Assembly (NCBI GenBank): GCA_021325435.1
Contig: JAJPHE010000144.1
Location: forward strand, 1-36,913
Length of the DNA: 36,913 nt
From: Actinomycetota bacterium
Lineage (GTDB): Bacteria; Actinomycetota; Acidimicrobiia; Acidimicrobiales; JAJPHE01
Direction: 5' to 3'
This document shows positions 17,691-29,405 of the stretch, piece by piece (the stretch's first letter is position 1; every line of letters begins with the position of its first letter). The notes under the pieces were generated by a model. It ran no database searches and had not been told where the DNA came from. It worked only from the letters and a program-made list of their open reading frames with translations. A program made the translations under genes and the position numbers.

Positions 17691-19004
17691 TCAGGATGCT
17701 CGGGCGGTGTCGCGACCAGCGTGCTTGGCTCGATAGAGGGCCTGGTCCGCCTGGCGGAACGCCTCCTGGTCGATCCCCAATGAGGTCGACATCCCGATGC
17801 TGGCGCTCACCTTCAGGGTGACGCCCTGCAGAACGATCGGGTCGCGCAGCGCCTCGAGTATCCGGCTGGAAAGCCGGGCGGCGTCTTGGCGGCCGCAGTG
17901 GGCGCACAGGATGGCGAACTCGTCTCCCCCGAGCCGGGCCACCAGGTCGTCCGCCCGCACCAACGACTGGATCCGCTTGCCGACCACTCGGAGGACTTCG
18001 TCGCCCATGGCGTGCCCGTGGGTGTCGTTGACCTGCTTGAAGCCGTCGAGATCGAGGTAGATGACCGACGACTCGATGGTCGAGTCCATCTGCTCCATGG
18101 CGTCATCTATGGCGCGCCTGTTGGCCAGCCCCGTGAGCGGGTCAGTCGCAGCTCGGAGCTTGAGCTGCTCCACCTGCTGGCGTAGGCGGATGGCTGCCTC
18201 GACCAGCTCCCGTGTCCTGTCGAGCATCTCCGAGGAGGCGTCAGGGTGCGGATAGCCGGGCGGTGTCCAGTGGGTGATGGTGGCGACGACCGTCCCGTCC
18301 AGGCCAGAGGCCGGGATGACGGTCACGTTCGACAGCTGTTCGCTTTCAGCGACAGAAGAGATCTCGGGATCGAGACCCGAGAGACCCATCGACAGCTGAG
18401 GGAGACCAGTGCGCCGGGCTTGGTCCCACGGGGAGCCGGGTCGCGGCTCGGCTCCGGTCAGTAGGTCCGGCAGTTGATGACCGACGCTGATCACCGGTTC
18501 TCCTGGGCTCCAGAGCGTGATGCCGAACTTGCTCCCGACCTCGGGAATCATGGCTTGTCCGACGTTGTGGAGCGCGGTGGCCAGTGGTTCCTCGGCGAGG
18601 AGACGGTGCAGGACCTCGGCGTAGATCTCCGAGCGCTCCGGGCGTCGCCCCACCAGCCAGAAGGACTGGGCGCGGTCCTCGGCGAGGACCGGACCCCCGG
18701 CCAGCTCGAGACTTACATACGAACCGTCCGAGTGGCGCAATCGGTACGAGATGGCGCTCCTGGGAACGTATCCCTGGGTTGCTTTGGCCGCCACCGCCGC
18801 GAACAGGCTGACGTCGTCGGGATGCAGAAAGTCGATGCCATTGCGCCCCACGACTTGGGCCGGTTCGTACCCCAGGAGGTCCAAAGCGCCCCGGCTGGCG
18901 AACTGGATGACCAGTCCGGCGTCGGCCACGATCAGGAGATCGCTCGAGTGGGCGAGGGTGTCCAGGACCTGCTCTGCCCAGGGAGCGGAGCGATCGACGG
19001 ACAC
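17691..19004 (-). CDS. Diguanylate cyclase with PAS and GAF-like sensor domains
   Basis: The protein has about 437 residues. Residues about 8-125 form a PAS domain (DLLIVADAGLVIQFASRGAL, HPDDVSLFAAVAA, RHSDGSYVSLELAG). A GAF-like middle follows (ATALHNVGQAMIPEVGSKFG), then a coiled linker, then a GGDEF domain (about 285-437) with YLDLDGFKQVNDTHGHAMGD and the intact active site RLGGDEFA (GGDEF 359-363). An RxxD product-inhibition site (RADD, 350-353) lies exactly five residues before GGDEF. It should make c-di-GMP from two GTP in response to a cytoplasmic signal, since no membrane segment is seen. No EAL domain is present. GTG 19002-19004 was chosen because longer frames overlap the upstream gene and look non-coding. 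Confidence 0.88.
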   Translation of the reverse strand: MSVDRSAPWAEQVLDTLAHSSDLLIVADAGLVIQFASRGALDLLGYEPAQVVGRNGIDFLHPDDVSLFAAVAAKATQGYVPRSAISYRLRHSDGSYVSLELAGGPVLAEDRAQSFWLVGRRPERSEIYAEVLHRLLAEEPLATALHNVGQAMIPEVGSKFGITLWSPGEPVISVGHQLPDLLTGAEPRPGSPWDQARRTGLPQLSMGLSGLDPEISSVAESEQLSNVTVIPASGLDGTVVATITHWTPPGYPHPDASSEMLDRTRELVEAAIRLRQQVEQLKLRAATDPLTGLANRRAIDDAMEQMDSTIESSVIYLDLDGFKQVNDTHGHAMGDEVLRVVGKRIQSLVRADDLVARLGGDEFAILCAHCGRQDAARLSSRILEALRDPIVLQGVTLKVSASIGMSTSLGIDQEAFRQADQALYRAKHAGRDTARAS

Positions 19005-19116
19005 GTCGAGATGGTACGCCGCCCTCCGGCCGCCCGGTCGCCATCCCCTTCGACTTGTGGTCAGCCTTGCGGCAGTGACCTCGACGTCGCGACCGTCGTC
19101 GCTACGCGGGTGAAGC

Positions 19117-20526
19117 TCATGCCCGCTTGAAGAACCACGGGCTGGCGTAAGCGGACGCACCGCCATAGGCGGCCTTCTCGAACGGCGCCACCCCCAGAGG
19201 GTCGATCGGACGCGCCGGATCGGTGATCCGCAGGAACATCCAGGCGCCATTGGGCTTCGCGGTGAACGAGATGACCGGCTCGCCCGGACCCGGGACGGTG
19301 ATGGGCACCACGTCCAGCAGGGTGGGGTCGCTGCGGCCCGGCCCGATGACCTGTACGAACAGCTTCTTGCCGCTCCACTGTGGTCCCCGGTCGATGTCGA
19401 GCCTGATACTCACCGGGTGTCCCTTGGGCAGGGCCAGCTCCGAGCCCATGGGGGCGCCGTTGGCGGTGGCGTCCAGGCGCAGACCCGCCTCACGGGTGCC
19501 GAAGCTGCGCCGCGACATGATGGCCCGCCGCACGCCCTGGCGGGTGAGGCTGTTGACGTAGAGACCACCCCGGCCCTTTCCGGTCTGGCCGTACACGCCT
19601 GAATGCTCGTCACTCACCCCGGTGAATCCCACCTGCCATCCGGCGTTGAAGCAGGCATTGAACGGCTGGGGGAGGCCCTGGTCGCGCCCGTACCAGAAGT
19701 AGTCGGTGGCCGTGTGCCCATGGCTCTGGTCCTGGTTGTAGGTGATGGCGTTGAACGCCTCGATGAGGAAGATCTGCTTGGCCGCGCCGGAGTGGTAGAC
19801 GAAGGACTGGAAGTTCCCGAAGTAACCCGGGTGGTTGAAGCTTCCGATGGCGTCGCTTCCGCCGCCGAAGGGCTCCGATCCGGGCTTCTGGGTCAGCCAG
19901 TCGTAGAACGGCAGGATCGTGGCCGTGTCAGGCGCGTTCTGGAATTGGTCGGCCACCGGCTTGCTCGAAGGGAAGACGCGCCACATCTGCGAGATGGCCC
20001 GGGGCGTGGCGAGGGCGGCCTCGTGGGCCGGGTCAGTGAAGTCGCTGCCGAACCAGACGTTGATGTGGCCGACGGTCGGGGTGCTGTACTCGAAGCCGCG
20101 GAAGGAGACGAAGGCGCCGGGTTCGTAGGCAGCGTCGGCGATCTTCGCCATCGTCTCCCAGTCGTTCTCGTTGATCCCCTCGATGAACCGGCACCCTCCG
20201 TCCTGCCACTTGGCGCAGGTGTACTGGCCGTGGTCCTTGCCCGACACTGCATGCTCGGTCATGCAGGCGACGTCGAGGCCGGCGGCCCGGAGCCGCTTCA
20301 GGGCGCTGAAGGGATCCCCTTCGGCATCCCCGGATATGAAGCTGTGGTTGTGCAGGTCGGAGTGGACAAGAAGCAGTGAACCCGACGGGTCCAGCCGCGA
20401 TCGCCGGGCCGCGCCCGCCGACCCCGGCACCCCGCCCAACGCTGAAGCCAGAACGGGGCGCATGGCCAGCCCCCCACCAGCCAAGGCCAGCGCCTTGAGG
20501 ACGGTTCGCCGCTGCACGGGATTCAT
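19117..20526 (-). CDS. Tat-exported PHP-domain metallohydrolase (CehA/McbA-like)
   Basis: The 469-residue protein has a twin-arginine signal (QRRTVLKALALAGGGLA, Arg 6-7), so it should be exported folded, metal loaded. The PHP metal motifs follow: SDLHNHSFISGDAEGDPF (about 56-73) and ACMTEHAVSG (about 87-96), with further candidate ligands in SFRGFEYSTPTVGHINVW, IGSFNHPGYFGN and FTGVSDEHSGVYG. The nearest known relatives are CehA/McbA-type hydrolases, some of which cleave carbamates or phosphoesters, but most are uncharacterised. The C-terminal ~120 residues look like a beta-sandwich. ATG 20526 gives a standard Tat n-region. The gene is single, about 110 bp before the GGDEF gene on the same strand. 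Confidence 0.85.
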   Translation of the reverse strand: MNPVQRRTVLKALALAGGGLAMRPVLASALGGVPGSAGAARRSRLDPSGSLLLVHSDLHNHSFISGDAEGDPFSALKRLRAAGLDVACMTEHAVSGKDHGQYTCAKWQDGGCRFIEGINENDWETMAKIADAAYEPGAFVSFRGFEYSTPTVGHINVWFGSDFTDPAHEAALATPRAISQMWRVFPSSKPVADQFQNAPDTATILPFYDWLTQKPGSEPFGGGSDAIGSFNHPGYFGNFQSFVYHSGAAKQIFLIEAFNAITYNQDQSHGHTATDYFWYGRDQGLPQPFNACFNAGWQVGFTGVSDEHSGVYGQTGKGRGGLYVNSLTRQGVRRAIMSRRSFGTREAGLRLDATANGAPMGSELALPKGHPVSIRLDIDRGPQWSGKKLFVQVIGPGRSDPTLLDVVPITVPGPGEPVISFTAKPNGAWMFLRITDPARPIDPLGVAPFEKAAYGGASAYASPWFFKRA

Positions 20527-24943: not shown

Positions 24944-24972
24944 TTGGCCTTGAAAATAGTATCTGCTATTAT
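24944..24972 (+). promoter_or_regulatory. Promoter and dyad operator between the P450 and TetR genes
   Basis: On the plus strand TTGGCC (24944-24949) and TATTAT (24967-24972) are 17 bp apart, a good -35/-10 pair. The TetR GTG is at 24979, 6 nt after the -10, so the mRNA should be leaderless. A dyad AATAG-tatctg-CTATT (24955-24970) covers the spacer and the -10. This AT-rich island stands out in GC-rich DNA. On the minus strand TACTAT and TATTTT offer possible -10 elements for the P450 gene, so one bound TetR dimer could close both promoters. Confidence 0.65.
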
Positions 24973-24978
24973 TGTTGG

Positions 24979-25581
24979 GTGGGGCGCCGGAGCGGGGTTA
25001 CGGCTGAAGAGACGCGAGAGCAGCTGCTCTCGGCGGCGGCCGCCACCTTCGCCGAGCGGGGCTACGAGGGGGCTCGGGTATCCGAGATCGCCCGGGCGGC
25101 GGGGCTGACCACCGGGGCCATCTACGCCCACTATGAGACGAAGGCCGACCTGCTCCTGGAGGCGCTGCGCTCCCATGGGGGGGCGGCGGCGGCCCAGCTG
25201 CTGTCCGAGGGATCGGGCGGCTCGGTGCTGGACCTGCTGGCCCGGGCGGGCAGCGCCCTTCCCCGCCGTGGCGGCCAGAAGGCGACCCTCCTGCTGGAGG
25301 CGGTGACTGCCGGCCGGCGAGACCCACGGGTCGGCAAGGTGCTGACGGCAACGCTCGCCCGGCGCGAGGAGCTGCTGGCCGGTCTGCTCCGCCAGGCCCA
25401 GGAGCGGGGCGAGGTGGATCGGGGACTGTCGCCCGAGGCCCTGTCGCGGCTCATCACGCTCATCGCCGTCGGGGCGCTCGTCGCCGGGGCCCTCCAGCTG
25501 GACCCGGTGGACTCGAACGAGTGGACGGAACTGATCAACCGGGTCGTGGACGCGGCCCGCCCGACCGAGGAGGAACGGTGA
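24979..25581 (+). CDS. TetR/AcrR regulator of the P450/BVMO gene cluster
   Basis: This is a 200-residue TetR protein: REQLLSAAAATFAERGYEGA, then GLTTGAIYAHYETKADLLLE form the HTH (about residues 12-58), followed by a helical ligand domain. GTG 24979 is the start, supported by the leaderless promoter directly upstream. Its TGA overlaps the GTG of the diiron gene (GTGA), so it is the first gene of the catabolic operon and is translated with it. The dyad over its promoter, also facing the P450 gene, suggests it represses both directions until a substrate or intermediate binds. The inducer is unknown. Confidence 0.9.
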   Translation: MGRRSGVTAEETREQLLSAAAATFAERGYEGARVSEIARAAGLTTGAIYAHYETKADLLLEALRSHGGAAAAQLLSEGSGGSVLDLLARAGSALPRRGGQKATLLLEAVTAGRRDPRVGKVLTATLARREELLAGLLRQAQERGEVDRGLSPEALSRLITLIAVGALVAGALQLDPVDSNEWTELINRVVDAARPTEEER

Positions 25582-26693
25582 CCACCGTCGACCGCAACTA
25601 CAACGACGCCGACGAGATCGTGATGGAGCGCAGCCACCTCGACGAGGTGATCCACGAGATCGACATCAACTCGAAGGTCCTCTTCACTTGGGACTACGAG
25701 CGCAGTCGAACCGCCCTGGTGAAGCTGTACGAGAAGGCCAAGACCTCTCAATGGAACGCCACCACGGACCTGCCGTGGGAGACGGAGGTCGACAATGAGA
25801 GGCTCGCCTCCGAGATGGGCGGTTCCAACGAGCGCTTCAACGTCTTGCGCGAGAACCCGGGCTCGCCGGTCAGGCACTGGGGCGAGGCGGAGTGGACCCG
25901 GTTCCGTATCGAGATGCAGAACTTCATGCTCTCCCAGTTCCTTCACGGAGAGCAGGGCGCACTTGTCTGCACCGGGCTGATCACCTCGACGGTGCCCTGG
26001 ATCGACGCCAAGTACTACGCCGCCACCCAGGTTATGGACGAGGCCCGCCATGTCGAGGTCTTCGGCCGCTACCTCGACGAGAAGATGGGCGGCACGTACC
26101 CCATAAGCCCGCAACTGGCCAGCCTGCTCGACTCGATCATCGTCGATGGGCGCTGGGACATCACCTACCTCGGCATGCAGATCATGGTGGAGGGACTCGC
26201 TCTCGCCGCCTTCGGGCTGATGCACATGATCACCCAGGAGCCGCTGCTCAAGAAGCTGCTCCGCTACGTAATGAGTGACGAGGCCCGCCACGTCGCCTTC
26301 GGGGTGCTCTCCCTCAAGGAGTTCTACGCCGGCCTGTCCGCCCCCGAGATCCGCAGCCGGCAGGAGTTCGCCTTCGAGGCAGCCCTCGCCTTACGCAACC
26401 GGTTCTCGGCCCAGGACGTCTGGTCGCGTCTGGGGGCTGACCCGAAGGCGGTCGTGCGGTTCCTCAACCAGAACCCGAACCCCGGCGAGCAGATGTTCCA
26501 GACGATGCTGTTCTCCAAGATCGTGCCCAACTGCAAGAAGCTGGGCCTCCTCGACGCCGGTGACGGCTGGCTGCGCCAGAAGTTCACCGAGATCGGCATC
26601 ATCCAGTTCGAGGATTGGGTGGACACCACCGAGGAGTACGGCACCCTCGACGCCGTCGCCGCCGATCGGGTCGAAGGGGAGCCGGCCGCCTGA
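25578..26693 (+). CDS. Ferritin-like diiron protein (R2-like oxygenase candidate)
   Basis: The 371-residue helical protein has a complete carboxylate-bridged diiron ligand set: E125 (HGEQGALVC), E155 and H158 (DEARHVEVF), E205 (VEGLALAAF), E235 and H238 (DEARHVAFG). This is the E...ExxH...E...ExxH pattern of R2-like and ferritin-like oxidases. Relatives hydroxylate, desaturate or N-oxygenate small substrates with O2, but the exact subfamily is not clear. Co-location with a P450 and a BVMO favours an oxygenase over iron storage. The GTG at 25578 overlaps the TetR stop and has GAGGAGGAA upstream. No membrane helix is seen. A 114-bp gap separates it from the fusion gene downstream. Confidence 0.8.
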   Translation: MTTVDRNYNDADEIVMERSHLDEVIHEIDINSKVLFTWDYERSRTALVKLYEKAKTSQWNATTDLPWETEVDNERLASEMGGSNERFNVLRENPGSPVRHWGEAEWTRFRIEMQNFMLSQFLHGEQGALVCTGLITSTVPWIDAKYYAATQVMDEARHVEVFGRYLDEKMGGTYPISPQLASLLDSIIVDGRWDITYLGMQIMVEGLALAAFGLMHMITQEPLLKKLLRYVMSDEARHVAFGVLSLKEFYAGLSAPEIRSRQEFAFEAALALRNRFSAQDVWSRLGADPKAVVRFLNQNPNPGEQMFQTMLFSKIVPNCKKLGLLDAGDGWLRQKFTEIGIIQFEDWVDTTEEYGTLDAVAADRVEGEPAA

Positions 26694-26807
26694 CCCGACC
26701 TGCCAGGAGTAGCGGGGCGGCCCGGCCGGGCTGCGACCGGTGCTGGTCGGCGCGCGAGAATGCCGACCGGGGTGCGCCGGCCGGCCCGGCGGCGAAGGAG
26801 GATCAAG

Positions 26808-29405
26808 GTGGCTGAAGCAAACGGTCGCTCGGCCGTCCGGCCCGACGTGGACGTCGTGGCGGTGGGGGCCGGATTCTCGGGCCTCTACCTCCTCCACCGC
26901 CTGAGGGGCCTCGGCTTCTCCGTGCGCCTGCTGGAAGCGGCCGACGATGTGGGGGGTACCTGGTACTGGAACCGGTATCCCGGCGCCTGCTGCGACATCC
27001 CGACCACGGACTACACCTACAGCTTCGACCCTTCCCTCGAGGGGGAGTGGACGTGGTCGGAGAAGTACGCCACCCAACCGGAGATCCTCCGATACCTCCA
27101 GTTCGTGGCCGACCGCTACGACTTGAGGCGCGACATCACCTTCTCCACCCGAGTGGAGCAGGCCGTCTGGGACGACCAGGCCCGGCTGTGGAGGATCCGC
27201 ACCGACGGCGGCGAGGACATCGCCTGCCGCTTCTACGTGATGGCCACGGGCTGCCTCTCGATGCCGAAGGAGGTCGACATCGAGGGAGCTGATCGTTTCG
27301 GGGGAGAGGTGTACTTCACCAGTCGGTGGCCCCACGAGGGCGTGGACTTCACCGGCAAGCGGGTCGCCGTCATCGGCACCGGGTCCTCGGGGATTCAGTC
27401 CATCCCGTTGATCGCCGAGCAGGCCGCCCAGCTGACGGTGTTCCAGCGCACGCCGAACTTCTCGATCCCGGCTCACAACGGCCCTCCGCCATCCGATTCC
27501 GTCGCCGCCCTGGAGAAGGACCGGTCGGCGTACCGGCAGGCGGCCAAGTACTCAAGGGGTGGCATCCCCTCGGAGCCCAACCAGCTGACGGCGGCGATGC
27601 TGACACCGGAGCAGCAGCGCGAGCGGTTCGAGGCGGCCTGGGCCCGAGGAGGACTGTTCGACATCCTCGGTGTCTTCGCCGACCAGATGGTGAACCCGGC
27701 GGCCAACGAGCTGGTGGCGGAGTTCATACGCGAGAAGATCCGCCAGATCGTCGAGGACCCGGAAACCGCTGAGGCCCTGTGCCCGACCGACCATCCCTTC
27801 GGCACCAAACGGCCGTGCCTGGACACCAACTACTACCAGACCTACAACCTGCCCCACGTGCGCTTGGTCGACCTCCGTAAGACGCCGATCACCACCATCA
27901 CCGACAAGGGCATCGACACGCTGGCCGAGTCCTTCGAGTTCGACGCCATCGTGTACGCCACCGGGTTCGACGCCATGACCGGTGCCCTGGTGGCGGTGGA
28001 CATCAGGGGCCGACACGGGCTCACCCTCGCCCAGAAGTGGGCCGACGGGCCCGTTACCTACCTCGGCCTGACCACCGTCGGGTTCCCCAACCTGTTCATG
28101 ATCACCGGACCCGGAAGCCCCTCGGTGCTCTCGAACATGGCGGTGTCCATCGAGCAGCACGTGGACTGGGTGGCGGACTGCCTCGCCGACCTGCGAGAAA
28201 AGGGCTTCGAGACCATCGAACCCACACCCGTCGCCGAGGCCGGCTGGGTGCAGCACGTCAACGACTGCGCTGACATCACCCTGTACCCGACGGCGAACTC
28301 CTGGTACATGGGGGCCAACGTTCCGGGCAAGCCGCGGGTCTTCCTGCCCTACATCGGTGGCGTGGACGCCTACCGCCGCACCTGCGAAGAAGTGGGCGAG
28401 AAGGGTTATCTGGGCTTCCACCTGTCGGGCCCGGCGGGTGAACTGTGCAACGACGGGGTGATCCGTCGGTTGCAGCCCGACGTCTCCATGCTGCTCGACA
28501 TGATGGCGATGCTGGGGTTGCCGGCGCTCGAGACGATGTCGCCGGACCAGGCCCGGGCGTTCAGCGACGCGACCAGCGCGGCCCGGCCACCCGGGCCGGA
28601 GGTGGCGGACATGGTCGACGGCGTCATCCCCGGGCCCGCCGGTGAGCTCCAGTTCCGCCTCTACCGGCCGGAGGGGACGGGCCCCCACCCGGTGATCGCC
28701 TACTTCCACGGCGGAGGCTGGGTGCTCGGAAGCCACGTGTCGGACGAGCCGTTCTGCCGCGACCTCTGCGTCCGGTCAGGGGCGGTGGTCGTGTCGGTCA
28801 ACTACCGCCACGGCCCCGAGCACCGGTTCCCGAGCGCCGTCGATGACGCATTCGCCGCCCTGCAGTGGATCGGCTCCAACATGATCGAGCTGGGCGGCAT
28901 CCCCGGGCAGCTGGCGGTGGCGGGCTGGAGCGCCGGTGGCAACCTGGCCACGGTGACCGCCCGTCTGGCCCGCGACGCCGGTGGCCCCGAACTGGTCGGC
29001 CAGCTGCTGATGTGTCCGGTGACCGACACCGACGTGGGCCGGCCGTCCTACGTGGAGAACGGCGAGGGCTACATCCTCACCAAGGGGCTGATGGACTGGT
29101 TCTTCGACCACTACGTCGATCCACCCGACCGGCAGGACCCCAGGGTGGCGCCCCTGCGGGCGCCCGACCTGTCCGGGCTTCCGCCCGCGGTGGTGGTCAC
29201 CTGCGAGTTCGATCCGCTGCGCGACGAGGGGATCGCCTACGCCGAGGCCCTCGAGGGGGCCGGAGTCCCCACCCGTGCCGTGTTCGGACGGGGTCAAATC
29301 CACACGTCGTTGCTCATGGTCGATGTGGTGATCTCCGGGCGGCCCGTGCGCGAGGAGATCGGAGCGGCCGTCCGCCGGTTCTTTCGGGCCTCGGTACCGG
29401 CCTGA
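26808..29405 (+). CDS. Baeyer-Villiger monooxygenase fused to an HSL-family esterase
   Basis: The protein has 865 residues. Residues about 10-535 are a class B flavoprotein BVMO: FAD Rossmann GAGFSG (20-25), [17 protein letters not shown], the BVMO fingerprint region [12 protein letters not shown] (164-175), NADPH Rossmann GTGSSG (190-195), [14 protein letters not shown] with the conserved Arg (335), and VYATGFDA (about 383-390). Residues about 600-865 are an alpha/beta hydrolase of the hormone-sensitive-lipase group: oxyanion motif HGGGW (634-638), nucleophile elbow GWSAGG (S708), D802 ([10 protein letters not shown]) and H832 (QIHTS). The enzyme should turn a ketone into an ester or lactone and then hydrolyse it. 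In the fingerprint the usual His is Phe (F170). GTG 26808 is fixed by a perfect AAGGAGG 6 nt upstream. Confidence 0.92.

Follow-up and report, generated by a model that had tools for sequence, protein, structure and literature searches.

The two-domain fusion encoded in the window, by which we mean the whole stretch of 36,913 nucleotides analysed, is real, old and widespread. A Baeyer-Villiger monooxygenase (BVMO)-like domain and an HSL-type hydrolase domain are read in a single frame that runs uninterrupted on the forward strand from a GTG at 26808 to a TGA at 29403-29405, and homology matches and motifs in both halves bear out the earlier note, which had proposed an intact frame of this kind with two domains carrying their own catalytic residues on one chain. 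A stop or frameshift near residue 560-600, named there as a finding that would undo the proposal, is excluded by the many independent assemblies in which the frame is fused. An alternative in-frame ATG at 26760 gives a protein 16 residues longer; as the Shine-Dalgarno sequence AAGGAGG, present as claimed, sits six bases ahead of the GTG, we prefer the latter. The features used below are as follows, clade A being the largest fused lineage of the BVMO tree.

26795..26801, +, Shine-Dalgarno AAGGAGG, six bases 5' of the GTG (sequence)
26808..29405, +, whole fused gene, 865 aa and stop (open frame; clade A with 55 fused frames)
26844..28418, +, BVMO-like domain, residues 13-537 (phmmer to 4ap3 and 1w4x; VIA-align Z ~47 to PAMO over residues 11-540)
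27297..27332, +, BVMO fingerprint, residues 164-175, with Phe170 at the consensus His (alignments)
27810..27812, +, Arg335, aligned with the catalytic Arg of BVMOs (54/54 clade A rows)
28419..28475, +, junction, residues 538-556, of near-constant length, with an NDG motif and a modelled beta-hairpin (alignment and AlphaFold2)
28470..29387, +, HSL-type hydrolase domain, about residues 555-860 (Pfam, phmmer, structure alignment)
28707..28718, +, HGGG, residues 634-637, oxyanion hole motif (sequence and alignment)
28923..28937, +, nucleophile elbow GWSAG, residues 706-710, with Ser708 (alignment)
29211..29213, +, Asp802 of the triad (54/54 clade A rows)
29301..29303, +, His832 of the triad (54/54 clade A rows)

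The two halves and their junction

By phmmer, residues 13-539 match steroid monooxygenase (STMO, 4ap3; E 4.2e-188) and residues 10-539 match phenylacetone monooxygenase (PAMO, 1w4x; E 4.2e-184), and the AlphaFold2 model aligns with PAMO (2ylw) with a Z of 47.2 over 528 residues, at 2.0 A and 52% identity. Both GxGxxG/A Rossmann motifs of type I BVMOs are present (GAGFSG at 20-25 and GTGSSG at 190-195), and residues 49-63 carry the second BVMO motif, [A/G]GxWxxxx[F/Y]P[G/M]xxxD, as an excerpt of PMC12250605 defines it. The catalytic arginine of type I BVMOs is found at Arg335, kept in all 54 clade A rows, and Asp63 is kept in all 53 rows that are readable there. By alignment, these two residues correspond to Arg337 and Asp66 of PAMO. 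Within the fingerprint FxGxxxHxxxW[P/D], F164, G166, W174 and P175 are present and Phe170 replaces the His. For this reason we do not call the protein a strict type I BVMO, although its sequence marks it as homologous to these enzymes and likely to work like one. The description of this half as a full BVMO thus stands for both Rossmann motifs and Arg335 and gives way at the fingerprint His, which is absent from the window protein and from 52 of the 53 readable clade A rows. Separately, the codon at 26988-26990 encodes Cys61, at a position that is Arg (YPGARCD) in all but one of 53 readable clade A rows; this is either a quirk of the lineage or a sequencing error.

In the other half, residues 553-834 match the HSL-type esterase Est8 (4ypv; E 1.2e-76), Pfam Abhydrolase_3 covers residues 631-833 (E 7.7e-70), and the model aligns with Est8 with a Z of 47.5 over 310 residues, at 1.5 A and 44% identity. 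The HGG oxyanion motif, the GxSxG nucleophile and the Asp and His of the triad that define the HSL family (family IV) are all found, and Ser708 is invariant in the 54 clade A rows. The elbow differs from those of the described subfamilies (GDSAG, GTSAG, GESAG or GCSAG): it reads GWSAG in 54 of 56 clade A hydrolases and GYSAG in two, as against GDSAG in 22, GESAG in two and no match in one of 25 other hydrolase rows, and GDSAG in 15 and GWSAG in one of 16 stand-alone hydrolases that were fetched. The NCBIfam LipP1 model scores 343.5 bits, below its cut-off of 350. The string GWSAG occurs in two papers of the open-licence literature, judged by title a qualitative health study and work on spider acetylcholinesterase.

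Over 54 clade A rows the junction varies more than the domains do (the most frequent residue has a mean share of 0.62 there vs 0.72 and 0.72 in the domains), and its NDG motif is found as N548 in 45, D549 in 48 and G550 in 51 of them. AlphaFold2 draws a hairpin with strands at 537-541 and 544-548 (block pLDDT 94; pLDDT 86.3 and pTM 0.84 for the whole chain), and in the model this ordered junction suggests that the arrangement of the domains is fixed and not floppy.

Distribution of the fusion

Of the BVMO frames in 71 loci, 38 were sorted as fused and 27 as unfused; over 155 loci the fused frames numbered 63. In a sample of 397 genomes from the window's order, 56 matched at E <= 1e-200 and 35, the window's own included, showed a single match spanning at least 800 of the 865 residues. 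The fusion was also found in 18 of 395 genomes sampled from the class and in 6 of 396 from the phylum, all of the window's order, the three samples overlapping; five genomes of the class sample, from other orders, matched at residues ~9-540 only. These samples suggested that the fusion is confined to one order, which clade A members in Pseudonocardia, Mycobacterium and Pseudomonadota rule out; besides Acidimicrobiia, the clade includes these genera, Bradyrhizobium and others. Named genomes outside the order carry it at 59-73% identity, and among the best 80 of at least 591 matches, whose counts are lower bounds, are Pseudonocardia lacus, Mycobacterium intermedium, Mycobacterium sp. ACS1612, several Bradyrhizobium, Vineibacter terrae and MAGs labelled Gamma-, Beta- and Alphaproteobacteria. 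A record titled Ilumatobacteraceae (L088) has a homologue at 73% identity. Phage records gave weak matches only, one of them with 80% cover and 33.6% identity and with an extra gene annotated between monooxygenase and lipase. One record titled Bifidobacterium breve (L093, CAMCZG010000042.1) carries a clade A frame identical in its aligned part to that of L061, whose genome belongs to the window's own order, and the title is likely an error of naming or binning.

Separate origins and unfused relatives

On a BVMO tree of 149 rows, for which SH-aLRT is the only support, clade A comprises 59 rows (support 100): 55 fused frames, among which L088 starts at a contig end and L009 and L089 are one sequence from two collections, and L013, L061, L091 and L093, truncated by N runs or at contig ends and recoded for the count of fused labels. 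The other fused groups are small. Clade B consists of L094-L096 from Bacillota, whose nearest relative in both the BVMO and the hydrolase tree is an unfused tandem pair of Cupriavidus (L072); clade C of L074 (Bradyrhizobium sp. CB82), L102 and L103; and clade D of L108 and L117, in which the order is reversed, with the hydrolase at residues 12-312, the BVMO at 318-842 and about five residues between them. Since its domain order is reversed, clade D cannot share its fusion event with clades A-C. After recoding of the truncated rows, the BVMO tree needs no more than four changes of the fused label, and the hydrolase tree recovers the same four groups, placing the clade D hydrolases with others whose genes precede that of their BVMO partner (L116, L137 and L141). 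Judged from these sequences, BVMO and hydrolase appear to have been joined on at least four separate occasions, once with the hydrolase first.

That genes of the two kinds often adjoin, as had been anticipated, is seen in eight plasmid records matching at least 80% of the query, one of them fused and seven with neighbouring gene pairs. Among 14 unfused loci, chosen for holding both genes, the two lie on the same strand with the BVMO first in eight and the hydrolase first in four, and on opposite strands in two.

The halves also occur apart. In one genus of the window's order (g43), three genomes (G042, G121 and G151) carry a stand-alone GWSAG hydrolase, and these hydrolases are sister to those of clade A (support 98/93, or 99/94 with G042 alone) in a tree that used 11 of the 55 clade A rows. 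In these genomes a different contig from that of the hydrolase carries an unfused BVMO of 62-64% identity; the BVMOs of G042 (L014) and G121 (L062) retain the fingerprint His and belong to a six-row sister group of clade A that itself has a support of only 85, the BVMO of G151 lying outside the rows of the tree. By sequence, this one related genus encodes the nearest unfused GWSAG hydrolases, and also close unfused BVMOs, in separate genes that do not adjoin. In a fourth genome, G177, contig ends truncate a fusion, and an unfused hydrolase-BVMO pair is present too. The 4.1 Mb genome of G042 is unusually rich in this family, with 15 query matches at E <= 1e-60, most of them BVMO-like.

Loss of the fingerprint histidine

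Position 170 in 54 clade A rows is Phe in 31, Val in seven, Tyr in six, Leu in five, Ser in two, Thr in one, His in one (L028) and unreadable in one; clade B keeps the His in all three rows. The His is absent from 62 of 66 fused rows vs 12 of 82 unfused rows, the latter having been selected by similarity to the fusion and so forming no random control. Striking as these counts are, the tie between His loss and fusion is not significant when independent pairs are compared (four pairs, sign test p 0.25-1). An unfused BVMO of an uncultured Acidimicrobiaceae (L101, 6001-7638), in the sister group of clade A, has Phe at this position, and the change from His to Phe is therefore possible without fusion. 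A genome search with the strict FxGxxxHxxxW pattern would miss nearly all of clade A, which questions the use of the fingerprint His as a finder of BVMOs.

According to passages of PMC3762062, mutation of the fingerprint His lowered the activity of CHMO and inactivated HAPMO, and yet BVMOAf1, with Gln at this position, is active, so that loss of the His need not mean loss of activity.

Selection and gene neighbourhood

Both halves are under purifying selection. In eight close pairs the NG86 dN/dS ranged from 0.039 to 0.207 in the BVMO half and from 0.062 to 0.298 in the hydrolase half (0.178 and 0.298 in the pair formed by the window protein and L028), the BVMO value being lower in six pairs, about equal in one and slightly higher in one.

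In the window the fusion is preceded on the same strand by a TetR-type regulator (24979-25581) and, between the two, by an AurF-like ferritin-like protein (25521-26693) with two DEARH motifs, which scores below the Pfam cut-off and weakly matches aldehyde-deformylating oxygenase and R2-like ligand-binding oxidase; a promoter-like site lies at 24944-24972 and a divergent P450 is nearby. Elsewhere in the window (17691-19250, minus strand) a protein with PAS and GGDEF domains is likely a diguanylate cyclase. When eight neighbours were compared by tblastn with the 155 loci, the AurF-like and TetR genes had matches at no locus but that of the window itself (L001), and other loci showed scattered matches to P450 or enoyl-CoA hydratase at 25-47% identity. 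An all-against-all BLAST of the flanks of 25 fused loci found no common neighbour outside Bradyrhizobium, and 20 neighbour proteins of the named loci match unrelated families. For the genes tried, and with many of the compared loci carrying only 1.5 kb of flank, these three comparisons rule out a conserved operon partner. Hence the neighbouring genes indicate no pathway common to the fused loci, which counts against a serial bifunctional enzyme, and since none of the other fused loci tested shows the window's arrangement, this arrangement says little on the substrate of the family.

Proposed function and its alternatives

From the sequence we infer both activities, their serial action and the substrate: the protein is probably a cytosolic bifunctional enzyme that would convert a ketone by way of an ester to an alcohol and an acid on one chain. 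The N-terminal half would form the ester from ketone, NADPH and O2 through an FAD peroxyflavin, with Arg335 and Asp63 acting as in PAMO, and the C-terminal half, with Ser708-Asp802-His832 and the HGGG oxyanion loop, would hydrolyse it to alcohol and acid, the net reaction being an oxidative cleavage of the C-C bond beside the carbonyl. As the nearest solved relatives are steroid and phenylacetone monooxygenases, the substrate is by analogy most likely a methyl or an aryl or alicyclic ketone, which would give acetate and an alcohol. Channelling between the active sites is possible. At least four apparently separate fusions in both orders suggest that the two steps belong together, and repeated joining of this kind favours, on the sequence record, the idea of sequential reactions. 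The missing fingerprint His and the Cys61 of the window protein weigh against this reading.

It is conceivable, if unlikely, that both halves are active and act on different substrates, the fusion fixing only stoichiometry, expression or stability. Fused loci that share no operon context would fit such an arrangement, as would an elbow of GWSAG against the GDSAG of most unfused partners, since the specificity may have moved. However, without a functional link it is difficult to see why members of the same two families should have been fused four times and in either order, and in many genomes BVMO and hydrolase genes are tandem pairs already.

A coupling of the FAD and NADP domains is ascribed to the conserved fingerprint His of BVMOs. 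A more elaborate form of the sequential enzyme, which we regard as quite unlikely, is that in the largest lineage the fusion comes with altered conformational machinery: the hydrolase, docked through the ordered hairpin, would take over part of the hinge role of this His, which would become dispensable, and would pass the ester straight on to its own GWSAG site, in a family with at least four origins in both orders.

It is improbable, too, that the lost His has crippled the BVMO half and left mainly an esterase, or an NADPH oxidase making H2O2 beside a hydrolase. Such a loss would agree with the mutants of CHMO and HAPMO and with the Phe, Val, Tyr, Leu, Ser or Thr that takes its place in all but one of the 53 readable clade A rows; against it, Arg335, Asp63 and Trp174 remain, as do both Rossmann motifs, the BVMO half evolves no faster than the hydrolase in seven of eight pairs, 12 of 82 unfused rows lack the His as well, and BVMOAf1 is active with Gln (passages of PMC3762062). 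An assembly artefact, or an annotation that joins two genes, has next to no probability and is ruled out: the window comes from a draft genome of 160 contigs, but fused frames occur in many independent assemblies, three one-contig genomes among them (G008, G133 and G320), a fused protein of another clade is annotated in RefSeq (WP_283043299.1), and the length of the junction is nearly constant.

Cascades of BVMOs and esterases are in use and artificial BVMO fusions are built. If the proposed bifunctional enzyme is borne out, biocatalysis would gain a ready-made catalyst: a fusion family, natural and widespread, whose junction is fixed and whose single chain yields an alcohol plus an acid from a ketone. 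The family would also serve as a natural test of whether fusing consecutive enzymes pays.

Comparison with known enzymes

Taken singly, the halves are enzymes of known kinds; their fusion, with its altered motifs, appears to be undescribed in the open literature searched. The earlier note had allowed for annotated relatives and knew of no characterised enzyme of this layout; WP_283043299.1 is such an annotated relative, and among the papers listed by our searches of the open-licence literature there was no characterised BVMO-esterase fusion.

STMO of Rhodococcus (4ap3) and PAMO (1w4x/2ylw), both type I BVMOs, are homologous to the window protein over residues 10-540, at about 52% identity in structure alignment, and share with it the two Rossmann motifs, the second motif GGxWxxxxYPGxxxD and the catalytic Arg. 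Unlike the window protein they are without a hydrolase domain, and both keep the fingerprint His, STMO by its aligned letters and PAMO according to a passage of PMC3762062, where the window protein has Phe170. The HSL family esterases Est8 (4ypv), Est2 (1evq), LipP1 and chloramphenicol hydrolase share the whole domain, the triad and the HGG motif of the other half; they are stand-alone enzymes, whereas the window hydrolase is fused, and its elbow is GWSAG and not the GDSAG of most unfused relatives examined.

Two further systems compare with the protein as a whole. BVMOAf1 of Aspergillus fumigatus is a natural fusion of 905 aa in which an N-terminal BVMO, with Gln in place of the His and with measured activity, is followed by a further domain, but as described in PMC3762062 this is a putative polynucleotide synthase and not an esterase. 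SadD with SadA/SadB, according to PMC12753306, takes a 2-ketone through an ester to an alcohol and acetate, the same sequence of reactions that we propose for the window protein, by separate proteins where the window has a single chain.
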